A stretch of DNA of 64,000 nt, from the NCBI RefSeq assembly GCF_041355105.1, contig NZ_JBFUPK010000001.1:1426001-1490000 (forward strand), in the 5' to 3' direction. Numbering within the stretch: position 1 is the first letter of the stretch; every line of letters starts with the position of its first letter. Origin of the DNA: Terriglobus sp. RCC_193 (GTDB lineage: Bacteria > Acidobacteriota > Terriglobia > Terriglobales > Acidobacteriaceae). Below are positions 53,159 through 61,985 of this stretch, one piece after another. The notes beneath the pieces are model-generated. The model saw only the letters and a list, made by a program, of their open reading frames with translations, did no database searches and was not told where the DNA came from. The translations under genes were made by a program, and so were the position numbers.

Positions 53159-54766
53159 TTACACAACCAAGCGGAAGCTCTTCCGCGTCTGTGTTGCCCT
53201 CTCGTTCAATGGTAGGACCGACGACTCTGACTCGTCTAATCGGGGTTCGAATCCCTGGGGGGCAACCAAAGCAAGCTCTTGGCTATTCGAGGCCTCATTG
53301 CGGAGCGCAAAGCCTGCTAATTCCGAATAAATTGAAGGGTTCGGTGGTGTTCCAAAGCCCTGAATTGTGAGTGGCAACCCCTTGGGGAAAAGTTTCTGCT
53401 GAATCCTTTGTTTTCCCTGTAAATCCGCGGCCTCCCATGTGCTTCTGGTGTTCCAAAGCGTGTGTTCGAGATAGCGGAAAGCATCGTCCGAATGGAAGCT
53501 GTTGGCCTCTACGGTGTAGAGGTGGTTCTGTGCGACTGCGATGGCGTTGCTGATGGACTTGCTGGCGGCCTTGTAATCCTCTGCCTCAATCACGCCATCG
53601 GCGAGTTGAGATAGTAGGCGTTCTTTGCGTGCCTTGAGTCTTCCTAGCTCCCTACGCAATGCCTCCGCCTCTTCGCCAGCGTTCTCATTGCGCTCTTGCC
53701 AGACGGAACGGAAGGCTTCACGCATTCGCGACATTGCTTCGTGCGAAGGGATCATGCTATCCAGCAGCGATGTAAAGCTGGCCTCAACTACTTCGCGCTT
53801 TACGTTCAGGTGTCCAGCTGCACGGTGGCACCTGTAATAGCCGAATTTGTTTCCCAGTTTGCCAGTGCTTATTGAAGCCGTCACGGGCTTCATACACTGA
53901 CCACAGAGGATCAGACCTCGGAGAGGAAAGTCCTCGCGGTCACGAGCGTGAGGCACGGCTACGGGCGACTTTCCTGACAGGATTACCTGCACCTGATTGA
54001 ATAGTTGCTCAGACACAAGTGGTTCAAAATCCCCTTGTACTGACATACCCCACTTCGCATTCACGATCTGCCCGGTGTACATGGGGTTCACTAGAAGGCC
54101 AGCGAGGGTTTCCTGATTGATTCGCAGACCTCGCTTTGAACGAAGGCCGCGCTCCGTGACCGTCTTCAAGGCAACCGCTTTCTGATGCCCCTTCGCTACC
54201 AGTTCAAATATCTGGCGAACTAAAGGGCCACGTTCTGGATCAATTACCAGCGATGGCCCGCCTGATGAGCCGTTGAGGTATCCAAGAGGCGCGGGCCACT
54301 GCCATCTGCCACTAGCCAAGCGAGTACGCATCCCCGATACTGTACGTTCTGCTCTTACGTCGTTGTCTAACTCAGAGACAGCAGACAAAAGTGTGGTGAG
54401 AAACTTACCCGACGGAGAGTTATCGGTTCGCTCCGTGGCACTCACCAGGGCGATGCACAACTTCTTCAGCGCAAGGCGATACACCGCCCCATCGTCAACA
54501 GACCGTGAGAAACGATCAAACTTGTAAACGACAACGTGCGTGATGCCCTTCTTGCGTGCATTGGCTTCGAGATGCCGGAACATGGCTTGGAACTGTGTAC
54601 GGTCTGCGGACTTTGCAGATTCACCGCGCTCGATGTAGCAGGTATCGACCGCTATGCCATTAGCTGCACACCAATCCCGGCAGACTTTCTCCTGAGCGTC
54701 CAAGCTGGTGTTGTCAACCTGTCTGCTCGACGACACGCGGATGTACAAAACGGCTTTACCACTCAT
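53159..54766 (-). CDS. Large serine recombinase (integrase) of the island; C-terminus reads through the tRNA gene
   Basis: 535 residues. Catalytic Ser12 lies in YIRVSSSRQ. The resolvase domain (VVYKFDRFSRSVDDG, to about 150), a recombinase domain (INQETLAGLLVNPMYTGQIV), a zinc ribbon (LILCGQCMKPV ... YYRC) and a coiled coil (about 370-430) are in the order of large serine recombinases. The last 39 or so residues (VAPQGFEPRLDESESSVLPL and on) are the antisense translation of the tRNA-Gln gene and host flank, so they are not the element's own end. The start overlaps an upstream small gene by four bases. Confidence 0.9.
   Translation of the reverse strand: MSGKAVLYIRVSSSRQVDNTSLDAQEKVCRDWCAANGIAVDTCYIERGESAKSADRTQFQAMFRHLEANARKKGITHVVVYKFDRFSRSVDDGAVYRLALKKLCIALVSATERTDNSPSGKFLTTLLSAVSELDNDVRAERTVSGMRTRLASGRWQWPAPLGYLNGSSGGPSLVIDPERGPLVRQIFELVAKGHQKAVALKTVTERGLRSKRGLRINQETLAGLLVNPMYTGQIVNAKWGMSVQGDFEPLVSEQLFNQVQVILSGKSPVAVPHARDREDFPLRGLILCGQCMKPVTASISTGKLGNKFGYYRCHRAAGHLNVKREVVEASFTSLLDSMIPSHEAMSRMREAFRSVWQERNENAGEEAEALRRELGRLKARKERLLSQLADGVIEAEDYKAASKSISNAIAVAQNHLYTVEANSFHSDDAFRYLEHTLWNTRSTWEAADLQGKQRIQQKLFPKGLPLTIQGFGTPPNPSIYSELAGFALRNEASNSQELALVAPQGFEPRLDESESSVLPLNERATQTRKSFRLVV
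53195..53268 (+). tRNA. tRNA-Gln (anticodon CTG)
   Basis: All four arms fold: acceptor TGCCCTC/GGGGGCA with discriminator A and an encoded CCA; D arm GTTC/GGAC; anticodon arm GACGA/TCGTC with loop CTCTGAC (anticodon CTG); T arm CGGGG/CCCTG with loop TTCGAAT. The variable loop has four bases. Its last bases are the left copy of the island's att repeat, and the tRNA remains complete. Confidence 0.96.
53260..53269 (+). repeat. Left attachment-site copy (tRNA 3' end)
   Basis: GGGCAACCAA ends the tRNA-Gln gene (discriminator and CCA) plus one base. The same ten bases occur in the same orientation at 61544-61553. Identity does not extend beyond these ten on either side. Confidence 0.6.
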
Positions 54767-56223: not shown

Positions 56224-56829
56224 TCATGCTGCCTTCTGGATCTTCTGCGCACGTAAGCGAGCAATCTGTGATCTGGCTTTCCTCTCGTCAGGCGAGAGAG
56301 TCAAGGGTGATTTCTCAAAGAGTTGTTTGGGAGTGCATCCGATAGACGCAGCGATGGTTTCTTCTCCATCTGCTTCTGTCATCTGATCTTCTTTCTTCTC
56401 CCTCTCTCTTCTTTCATCTGTCATCTTTCCTCTGTCATCTTCATAGGGGTCTGTCAAAGACGCTGTCACAGGGTCTGTGACAAGCTGAGACTTTGCTTTT
56501 CCCTGTCTTGCCTTCAGGCCGCGTCGTTGGTTTGCTTCCACAGTCTTCGAGACTTCTGCGAGAGAAGCATCAAGTTGATCGTGGCGCAGACTGCCGTTCG
56601 ACATTTCGAAGAACTCGCCGATGACTGATTCGGTGATCCCTTCGGAGTCCTTGCCGAGTTGCGCGAGACGCTGAAGTTGTTTCATGTCTGACGGAAGGCC
56701 CTGCCTGTACCAGTACGCGATGTAGAGCCGCGTATACGCCCTGAATGCTGCGTCATCGAGGTGATCGGTTTGGTTTAAGAAGTCGGCTGCCCAGAATTTG
56801 ACCCAAGGCAGAAATAGTTTTTCTGGCAT
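56224..56829 (-). CDS. DUF1376-domain protein, phage replication-like
   Basis: 201 residues. The N-terminal FLPWVKFWAADFLNQTDHLD, then DAAFRAYTRLYIAYWYRQG, matches the DUF1376 (YdaU-like) family found in prophages next to replication genes. The middle is acidic and the C-terminal half highly charged (ERREREKKEDQMTEADGEE). A replication-initiator or helicase-loader role is inferred. The start is the ATG at 56829. Confidence 0.8.
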   Translation of the reverse strand: MPEKLFLPWVKFWAADFLNQTDHLDDAAFRAYTRLYIAYWYRQGLPSDMKQLQRLAQLGKDSEGITESVIGEFFEMSNGSLRHDQLDASLAEVSKTVEANQRRGLKARQGKAKSQLVTDPVTASLTDPYEDDRGKMTDERREREKKEDQMTEADGEETIAASIGCTPKQLFEKSPLTLSPDERKARSQIARLRAQKIQKAA

Positions 56830-56874
56830 GTACTTTCCCAAGTGGTTTTAGTTATTCCCTCCAAGTAGGCAAAG

Positions 56875-58244: not shown

Positions 58245-58436
58245 TCACTGCAAACGCTCCGCGTGATCTCGCAAGTCCTGGATCGTGTACTCCACCGTTC
58301 CTTGTCCATCTCGGAACTGGCGAAGCGTGCCTGCATCAACGGCAGCCTGAAGAGCTTCAGATTTGACCGCGAGAATGGCGGCGGCTTCTGCGGCAGAGAG
58401 GCGAGGTTGCGGATATTCGGCGGTGTTAGAGGGCAT
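58245..58436 (-). CDS. Small HTH/excisionase-like protein, coupled to the upstream gene
   Basis: 63 residues starting MPSNTAEYPQPRLSAAEAAA. The layout (helix, EALQAAVDAGTLRQFRDGQG, then a short strand) resembles a MerR/excisionase winged helix. Its GGAGG ribosome site lies within the last codons of the upstream gene, eight bases before its ATG, and the frames overlap by 11 bases. A longer frame is rejected. It may regulate recombination direction with its neighbour. Confidence 0.65.
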   Translation of the reverse strand: MPSNTAEYPQPRLSAAEAAAILAVKSEALQAAVDAGTLRQFRDGQGTVEYTIQDLRDHAERLQ

Positions 58437-58623
58437 CGTCTTCGCCTCCGCGACTGCGGCAACTGATGAAGCGACTGAGGTCGCCTCGCTGGATTCGGAT
58501 GCATCGCTTTGTGCCAAGTCGGACGCTGCGTAGGGTGCCAGCGCGAAGCCAGTCGCGGATCGTAAACGGAGACACGCTTAGGTGTTCCGCCGCTTCCGCA
58601 ACGGTGAGAAATGGTTTGTCCAT
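58426..58623 (-). CDS. Excisionase-family helix-turn-helix protein
   Basis: 65 residues. FLTVAEAAEHLSVSPFTIRD and WLRAGTLRSVRLGTKRCIRI are the HTH and wing of the excisionase (xis/MerR-like) family. These bind DNA and often tilt a recombinase toward excision. A stem-loop lies 36 bases upstream. The last codons encode the next gene's ribosome site. Confidence 0.82.
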   Translation of the reverse strand: MDKPFLTVAEAAEHLSVSPFTIRDWLRAGTLRSVRLGTKRCIRIQRGDLSRFISCRSRGGEDDAL

Positions 58624-58658
58624 TGTGTATGTGTTGTCCTTTATCGGGGAAAGAAAAA

Positions 58659-58685
58659 GGCCCAACACCGGCTATGGTGTGGGCC
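58659..58685 (-). repeat. Stem-loop in the leader of the excisionase gene
   Basis: GGCCCAACACC (58659-58669) pairs with GGTGTGGGCC (58676-58685) with one bulged A. Read leftward it is followed by CCTTTTTCTTTCC, a terminator shape, 36 bases before the start codon. Confidence 0.8.
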
Positions 58686-59073: not shown

Positions 59074-59745
59074 ATGACAGAGGCAGTTGCGTATCTGAGA
59101 GTGAGCGGAGCTGGACAGGTAGACCGTGACGGCTTCATAAGACAACAGGAGGCGATTGAGCGTTATGCGAGTGCGCACGGCTTGAATGTCATCGAGGTCT
59201 TTAGAGAAGAAGGTGTTTCAGGAACCAAAGACCTTGAAAACCGGCCTGCTCTGCAAAATCTGTTACTGGCAATCAATGAAGGCGATGCCCAGGTCGTTCT
59301 CATTGAGCGACTGGACAGGCTCGCGAGAGACTTGATGATTCAGGAAACGATTCTTGGCGATCTGCGTAAGAGGGGAATCACGGTCATCTCAGTCGCAGAG
59401 CCGGACTTGTGCAGCGATGATCCTTCACGGAAGTTGATGAGGCAGATATTCGGTGCCATCGCAGAGTATGACAAGGCGATGATCGTCCTCAAACTACGTG
59501 GTGCAAGGCAGCGTATGAAGGCGAAAACGGGTCGCTGTGAAGGCGCAAAAGCTTTCGGCACATCTGGCCATCATCGTGTCACCATCGACCGCATTTTGAG
59601 CCTTAGGGACGCGGGGATGGCCGTCGATAAGATTGCAGAGACGATCAACTCAGAAGGTCTGCCCTCAAAGAACGGTGGACGGTGGTATGGAAGCTCCGTT
59701 CGGAATGTCCTGCTGCGTGAGCAAGGGAAGGCGGTGGCGGCATGA
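59074..59745 (+). CDS. Serine resolvase/invertase
   Basis: 223 residues. Catalytic Ser11 is in YLRVSGAGQ; VVLIERLDRLARDLMIQETI and AIAEYDKAMIVLKLRGARQR follow. The C-terminal DRILSLRDAGMAVDKIAETI carries an HTH for site binding. Size and layout fit small serine recombinases rather than large integrases. It overlaps the next small gene (ATGA). It may resolve replicated copies or invert a segment. Confidence 0.93.
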   Translation: MTEAVAYLRVSGAGQVDRDGFIRQQEAIERYASAHGLNVIEVFREEGVSGTKDLENRPALQNLLLAINEGDAQVVLIERLDRLARDLMIQETILGDLRKRGITVISVAEPDLCSDDPSRKLMRQIFGAIAEYDKAMIVLKLRGARQRMKAKTGRCEGAKAFGTSGHHRVTIDRILSLRDAGMAVDKIAETINSEGLPSKNGGRWYGSSVRNVLLREQGKAVAA

Positions 59746-61395: not shown

Positions 61396-61543
61396 ATAAA
61401 TCAAATCATCCTTGGTTCAGGGTTCCGTAAATTCCCGGTGGACAGCGAGCCGGGAGCATCGTTGCAGACCATGCAAACAATAGACTGTTTTCAGATTCCT
61501 GAACGAATATCGTGGGCAAGTTCGTTCCAATAATGCCGGAAAA

Positions 61544-61553
61544 GGGCAACCAA
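61544..61553 (+). repeat. Right attachment-site copy
   Basis: GGGCAACCAA repeats the tRNA-Gln 3' end. Terminator stems begin 15 bases later, as expected for the original sequence downstream of the tRNA gene. Confidence 0.6.
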
Positions 61554-61567
61554 CAACTTTACCTTCG

Positions 61568-61618
61568 ACCCGCGATTCGTGCGGGTTTCGTGTTTCACCC
61601 GCGCCCAGCGCGGGTTTT
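61568..61618 (+). terminator. Two adjacent terminator hairpins, probably of tRNA-Gln before insertion
   Basis: ACCCGC (61568-61573) pairs with GCGGGT (61581-61586) and is followed by TT. CCCGCGC (61598-61604) pairs with GCGCGGG (61608-61614) and TTTTATT follows. No rightward gene ends just before them, which fits a terminator cut off from the tRNA by the island. Confidence 0.8.
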
Positions 61619-61685
61619 ATTGTTTGTGGGATATTTTCAATGCAGTCAACGGAACCAACTGAATACCACTGAAACAAGCGGATTT

Positions 61686-61715
61686 GTGACACCAAGCTAT
61701 GTAGGTGACACCAAG
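61686..61715. repeat. Two direct copies of GTGACACCAAG
   Basis: Copies at 61686-61696 and 61705-61715, period 19. They lie 12 to 42 bases before the start of the truncated integrase-like gene and may be arm-type or regulatory sites. Confidence 0.65.
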
Positions 61716-61727
61716 TATCGAGGAACG

Positions 61728-61985
61728 ATGAGCGAGCATGCACTACGCGTTATGCGGAAGGTGAAGATCGAGGGGAAGTGGGTCCTTGCACCCGTACCCT
61801 TATCGAAGGGCAAACCGGATCCATCTCATGTGATGCACAAGGGAAAGATCACACCGGTTGAAGGTGGGACCTTCTACTTGGATCATGGTCACGGCCGCGG
61901 GCGCGCAATTTGCAGGGATTGCACCTCACTGCTTTTAGTATGTTGCTGGCGTTTTGTAGCTTTGTTCTATGTTTTTAGTTCATGA
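61728..61985 (+). pseudogene. Truncated integrase-like gene (N-terminal fragment)
   Basis: 85 residues. MSEHALRVMRKVKIEGKWVL, then APVPLSKGKPDPSHVMHKGK and GGTFYLD, look like the N-terminal arm and SAM-like start of a tyrosine recombinase. After GTFYLD the frame turns into Cys/Leu-rich non-coding-looking sequence and runs into the end of the dehydrogenase gene, so the catalytic domain is lost. The family assignment is a judgement from the N-terminus only. It is outside the inferred island boundary. Confidence 0.5.

Follow-up and report, generated by a model that had tools for sequence, protein, structure and literature searches.

The DNA analysed here, hereafter the window, is a stretch of 64,000 nucleotides that carries an element of 8.28 kb, bounded by two copies of GGGCAACCAA and integrated at the 3ʹ end of a tRNA-Gln(CTG) gene (Table 1). 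At its integrase side the element encodes a large serine recombinase. The protein has an N-terminal Resolvase domain with the catalytic serine (Pfam, 5.2e-29) followed by the recombinase domain (Pfam, 3.9e-13), zinc ribbon and coiled coil by which large serine recombinases are recognized. The Zn_ribbon_recom match, at 24.1 bits, falls just below the cut-off of 25.3, and its Cys columns are conserved in the alignment of relatives; long helices are seen at 338-385 and 392-415 in the predicted model of a relative. Residues Y8, R10, V11 and S12 and further Arg columns are invariant (alignment A1), PHROG 95 (integrase) matches at 4.7e-81, and 3guv, TP901-1 and A118 are among the solved chains matched.

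Table 1. Features of the element and its insertion site (positions in the window)
Feature	Position	Strand	Details
Large serine recombinase ORF, integrated form	53159-54766	-	535 aa; continues across the core and tRNA-Gln(CTG)
Element-coded and core-coded part of the recombinase (M...LALVA)	53261..54766	-	502 codons
Host-coded tail, integrated form	53159..53260	-	33 codons and a stop codon; runs antisense through the tRNA and past it
tRNA-Gln(CTG), host target	53195..53268	+	ARAGORN; its final 9 nt fall within the att core
Left core copy GGGCAACCAA (attL, integrase side)	53260..53269	.	10-mer repeat; homology of relatives stops at 53269
DUF1376/primosomal-protein-like gene	56224-56841	-	
Small HTH_17 protein, excisionase-like	58426..58668	-	Pfam HTH_17 3.4e-11; PHROG 66 and 2907 (excisionase)
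Second, small serine recombinase	59074-59745	+	223 aa; resolvase type
Circular tail LFRHYWNELAHDIRSGI plus TGA	61491..61543	-	First base of codon 1 lies within the core
GTTCCAA, window form of the attP-arm motif	61524..61530	+	
Right core copy GGGCAACCAA (attR)	61544..61553	.	10-mer repeat

A first-pass annotation of this DNA had proposed that the recombinase has two possible C-termini, depending on whether the element is integrated, and the frames agree with this proposal. In the integrated state the frame does pass the att site antisense to the tRNA and enter host DNA, where ...LALVA is followed by PQGFEPRLDESESSVLPLNERATQTRKSFRLVV and a stop; the extension had been put at about 38 residues and is in fact 33. 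When the two ends are joined at GGGCAACCAA, the frame that had been predicted is recovered: ...LALVA continues into LFRHYWNELAHDIRSGI and stops after 17 codons, with the right end of the element supplying this part of the gene, stop included. The joined frame is the same wherever within the 10-bp identity the exchange falls. The accompanying claim, that only the circular element has a stop of its own, is borne out for the window, as integrated copies take their stop from host DNA.

The left boundary of the element is independently supported, because in L012 and L014, two relatives whose site is uninterrupted, the match to the window (approximately 90%) extends as far as 53269 and no further. 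The right boundary is placed by means of the core repeat and the tail themselves; positions 61400-61974 were aligned by none of the 15 loci compared, and a search for the right flank of an empty site gave no confirmation in relatives. The 10-mer occurs at only two places in the window, searched on both strands, namely the left and right cores. The putative attP-arm motif reads GTTCCAACT, GTTCAAACT or similar in relatives, where it lies about 13 nt from the core, and the combination GTTCCAA-N12..17-GGGCAACCAA occurs a single time in the 4.2-Mb genome, at the site of this element. A search for dyad symmetry around the attP core found no common centre. The DNA just 3ʹ of tRNA-Gln is a variable site that differs between most of the 11 loci from the genus (L012, L014, L019, L020, L022, L023, L025, L026 and L028-L030); L012 and L014 are alike there.

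The directionality of serine integrases is usually ascribed to a separate factor, and the small HTH_17 protein of the element is a candidate for this role. The element also encodes a second, resolvase-type serine recombinase, whose profile is weakly matched by plus-strand ORFs in three related elements (G234, G392 and G415). Its DUF1376 gene suggests a replication part derived from a phage.

Relatives were sought in 61, 399, 300 and 396 genomes (some of which recur between searches) and in one viral scan. The subfamily was found at approximately 29-38% identity to the window protein. Scans of genome and viral contigs for close relatives with the single window protein found nothing, and phage and plasmid collections returned partial matches only, with no record covering 80% of the query. 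From these searches we picked by hand 36 integrated copies, including that of the window, in which the frame enters the 3ʹ half of a tRNA antisense and in one phase. An ARAGORN call identifies the tRNA in 29 of these copies, and the other seven were recognized by a tRNA-like 3ʹ end or by the peptide pattern; unbroken genes, a second group, V065, V074, G867a and G604 (which has Ns at the junction) stand outside this set. No copy has a stop before the core. The frame continues in every case into the tRNA (Gln, Glu, Ala, Lys, Arg or Met), the read-through ends GFEP-, GIEP- or similar, and the host-coded tails comprise 8 to 47 residues. A conserved C-terminus ending before the att site, which the first-pass annotation had named as evidence against its proposal, is therefore absent from the collected copies, and the conserved end of the protein lies beyond the core.

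The 396-genome search yielded 23 new matches, of which 16 were fetched and seven omitted as partial or near a contig end. For a phylum-level test set of 16 loci, the prediction had been fixed before any of the DNA was fetched. Thirteen of these loci enter the tRNA in the expected phase, and eight of the 13 give a joined tail of the predicted type (G725 was joined by hand, and the other seven came from the automatic repeat list), with 1.5-7.7 kb of DNA in hand for the five that do not. The remaining three are G633 and G867b, which are unbroken, and G867a, which enters the tRNA in another phase. A single phase for all integrases of this kind was considered and is ruled out by V065, V074 and G867a, which enter the tRNA in still other phases, and by the second group (G539, G524, G455 and G280; loci L113, L117 and L119), which enters it in another phase. 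In G539, G524, G455 and G280, helix-like sequence precedes the core. No convincing joined tail was found in G539, G455 or G280, and there was no candidate for G524 in 2.5 kb.

The second core was located in 18 of the 36 copies, including all 14 for which more than 18 kb was in hand; the 18 copies without it had 0.9-11.5 kb. Every one of the 18 joins is in frame and produces a tail with [WL]-N at positions +6/+7. An out-of-frame junction, the other outcome named beforehand as counting against two C-termini, was thus encountered neither in the window nor in the 17 relatives that could be joined. Sixteen of the other ends were identified by a second copy of the tRNA end, of 8-15 bp in those measured (that of G725 was located by hand), and two, G111 and G472b, by the arm motif GTTCCAACT. 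The longest tRNA-end repeat yields the tail in eight loci (the window, G472a, G491, G777, G770b, G928, G733 and G669), and G725 has a single further copy of GGTCCACCA. In seven more (G312, G234, G392, G172, G908, G873 and G415) a repeat at least as long lies elsewhere, and the tail helped the choice; these joins are weaker evidence, and G312 and G392 had first been spotted by the tail pattern. The right-end cores of G111 (L051) and G472b (L128) depart from the tRNA end at some bases, and therefore the two partners need not have identical cores. The other end of V066 was found neither in its 12.6-kb locus nor in the first 8.6 kb of its 42.6-kb record.

Length and ending differ among the joined tails, which include HLAVSWNQTLEWLKQLNTLRNSCD (G472a), HLFENWNQTMQYLASMAQFKQADPLG (G491), QTVAGWNQIVTGLREMDLLRREGLFRAA (G312), LSTQSLNQFAENVSRAEALSAEIASIY with a further continuation (G234), RIFASWNQLSTWLTRLDALRRAA (G873), PICVSWNQLRWWLRAVDGLRRAA (G777), LNSASWNPLISWLRRIEALRSVA (G733) and RIFTSWNRLTTWLRQVERLRLAA (G111). 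A similar C-terminus is present within one continuous gene in six relatives (G573, G564, G530b, V067, G633 and G867b). In G573, for example, the unbroken end reads LVH followed by PAFESWHQLAEEIRVLAMISQGT and a stop, with WH where other members have WN or LN. A profile was built from four of these unbroken genes only (G573, G564, G530b and V067) and used to rank the joined 14-mers among all open 14-mers of the same DNA, in pools of 3,081-33,510. The window 14-mer ranks first of 7,684. Those of G472a, G491 and G312 also rank first, followed by G172 (5), G392 (6), G234 (8) and G415 (22), and ten later joins from seven loci rank 1, 1, 1, 2, 1, 2, 1, 2, 1 and 3. With the WNQ codons removed, the window tail still ranks 1 of 9,609 over codons 9-14 and 12 of 9,067 over codons 9-16, and G472a ranks 1 of 15,505. 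The other joins drop to 0.3-1.3% when these codons are withheld, with weak ranks for G234 (402 of 31,559), G312 (131 of 31,703), G172 (101 of 34,490) and G491 (14 of 3,818).

The unbroken genes also bear on the age of the tail. In a tree of 52 members, 33 cut and 6 whole, the G573 clade is distant from the window protein, and if the likeness of their tails reflects descent, the tail is therefore old. G573 and G564 have about 12.5 kb in common on both sides of the gene, and this shared DNA includes a tyrosine recombinase (G573 being the one scanned). Three loci (L131, L132 and L133) hold related elements in which the large serine recombinase is unbroken; L131, the one scanned, carries a tyrosine recombinase, a TrwB/HerA-like ATPase, a D12 methyltransferase and a weak RuvC match. 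Two of ten ORFs flanking the V067 gene match PHROGs, both upstream of it, and a search for V067 as a free circle found no terminal repeat of at least 10 bases.

Joined frames are also present in real DNA, at tandem junctions in G733 and G770b, where integrase remnants are in frame with the tail. Two successive right ends occur at one tRNA-Ala in G733 (L190-L191) and three in G669 (L192), each with its own tail, and these are stacked insertions at one site. Taken with the joins and the unbroken genes, the frames make it very likely that the circular C-terminus is the native one and that integration removes it. We are thus largely confident in a coding switch in which the circle would encode the conserved end and the integrated copy would lose it.

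Whether the tail is conserved as protein or as DNA can be addressed by its codon patterns. If it were conserved merely as an attP half-site bound by the integrase, the frame would be incidental and the tail would have no role in the protein. Codons 5-7 (SWN, AGTTGGAAC) are identical at all three positions in all ten joins of one clade, and the codon before W keeps T at position 3 even as its residue varies. Because these codons are constant at all positions, the SWN part may be under constraint as attP DNA, and it fits what is expected of a recombinase half-site. In addition, G472a, G491, V067 and G312 show no clear codon pattern beyond the motif, with differences at positions 1/2/3 of 0.67/0.38/0.71 for codons 9-16 and 0.75/0.65/0.71 for codons 14-28. 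Against a half-site as the full explanation, the frame is open in all 18 joins as well as in the six unbroken genes, and constraint of the kind expected for a protein extends past the motif in some groups. In G234, G392 and G415, codons 9-28 have a dN of 0.09-0.17 with a dS of 1.35 or saturated, and differences in codons 14-28 fall at 0.09/0.13/0.56; past codon 28 an ungapped comparison gives no constraint (dN 1.1-1.7 or saturated). The Ala/Lys/Glu clade has 0.30/0.28/0.77 in codons 17-23, and little third-position excess in codons 10-16 (0.54/0.37/0.60). For the window with G573, G564 and G530b, the values are 0.37/0.00/0.63 in codons 9-13, and pairs among the latter three have dN/dS ratios of approximately 0.17 to 0.38 from codon 9 onward. 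These patterns show protein-level constraint beyond the att motif in some groups, with others lacking it, and both DNA and protein constraint appear to act on the tail. We therefore regard conservation purely as DNA as highly improbable.

The same codons weigh on a simpler possibility, in which the tail is a spare end, attP sits at the 3ʹ end of the gene for compactness, and both forms of the protein behave alike. Variation in tail length and ending would be expected of such an end. The tail of an unbroken relative has a pLDDT below 50 in its predicted model, and because of this low value no contact of the tail is shown, which is likewise compatible with a dispensable segment. However, purifying selection on codons 9-28 of G234, G392 and G415, and the fact that the G573/G564/G530b clade, distant in the tree, has a similar tail, make a spare end quite unlikely.

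The mechanism we propose begins with an attP core placed within the 3ʹ part of the integrase gene in this tRNA-targeting subfamily. The circular element would produce a full-length integrase whose tail past the core, of 17 to about 80 residues, starts with the conserved stretch ([WL]-N at +6/+7, then helix-like sequence). Recombination with the tRNA 3ʹ end would leave the tail codons at the opposite end of the element, separated from the start of the gene, and would join the integrase body to variable residues encoded on the antisense strand of the host tRNA gene, with a stop taken from host DNA. Integration would in this manner turn the circle form into the prophage form, which might differ in stability or reaction preference and may help to make integration directional. 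The chances that the long and short forms differ in function seem to us about even. The role we favour for the tail is control of stability or direction, with a short form that probably is still a recombinase, because the catalytic and DNA-binding domains stay in place, and that, given a directionality factor, could carry out excision of the element.

A more specific version of stability control would make the tail a C-terminal degradation tag, such that the circle integrase is short-lived and integration stabilizes it by removing the tag, as for the repressor of mycobacteriophage BPs, whose ssrA-like tag is removed by integration according to the available part of that report (PMC4557955). 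The last two residues are AA or VA in ten of 24 tails, compared with 19 of 546 ORFs of at least 200 aa in the fetched DNA, and the low confidence of the tail in the predicted model would suit a tag. However, the AA/VA tails are not independent because seven of the ten come from one clade; the window tail ends in SGI and several others also lack a final Ala; and the constraint in G234, G392 and G415 falls on codons 9-28 and not on the last residues. A degradation tag is thus a doubtful explanation, if less so than a spare end.

Alternatively, the short form could be inactive and the element locked in place until full-length integrase arrives from outside, by analogy with archaeal suicidal integrases of the SSV type (PMC8371274, in the part available). 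The right ends stacked at a single tRNA in each of G733 and G669 would fit such one-way insertion. However, the resolvase, recombinase, zinc-ribbon and coiled-coil regions all precede the core and the C-terminal tail alone is lost, which leads us to consider an inactive short form unlikely, more so than a degradation tag.

The broadest reading that we entertain is that a whole lineage of bacterial integrases uses its own att site as a protein switch, with the circle making an integration-competent (or tagged and short-lived) long form, integration turning this into a prophage form of different behaviour, and the product of the reaction in this manner resetting the enzyme and enforcing its direction. 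We hold this joint claim only tentatively, at somewhat less than an even chance. If integration does edit the integrase, the arrangement would provide a built-in layer of control. Furthermore, wherever integrase genes of this lineage are annotated from integrated copies, their C-termini would be antisense readings of a tRNA, and tests and tools built on such annotations would therefore use the wrong protein.

To our knowledge, the attP sites of the model large serine integrases lie outside the integrase frame. The window protein resembles integrases of the phiC31/Bxb1/A118 type in its resolvase, recombinase and zinc-ribbon domains and its long coiled-coil-like helices, and differs in having the attP core within the 3ʹ part of its own gene and in targeting tRNA 3ʹ ends. 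Among the matches listed in open-access literature (by titles and the starts of abstracts), there was no report of attP inside the gene of its own bacterial serine integrase, which is weak evidence as subscription papers are mostly absent there; the available part of a survey of serine recombinases (PMC10083194) likewise contains nothing on attP inside the gene. The nearest parallels are the archaeal suicidal integrases and the BPs repressor. SSV-type integrases also have attP within the integrase gene, which is disrupted by integration, and the accessible portion of a review describes the two parts of the split gene as inactive and self-disrupting recombinases as exclusive to archaea (PMC8371274). 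Those enzymes are tyrosine recombinases, whereas the window protein has serine recombinase domains, and in its subfamily the C-terminal tail alone is exchanged. In BPs, as described in the available part of the report, attP lies within the repressor gene and integration trims 33 C-terminal residues, with a measured effect (PMC4557955). The two systems share an attP within a gene, a C-terminus changed by integration and circle and prophage forms that differ, the last of these being a prediction here. Unlike BPs, the gene that contains attP here is that of the integrase and not a repressor. If the switch is real, the lineage would represent a bacterial serine counterpart of the archaeal suicidal integrases.
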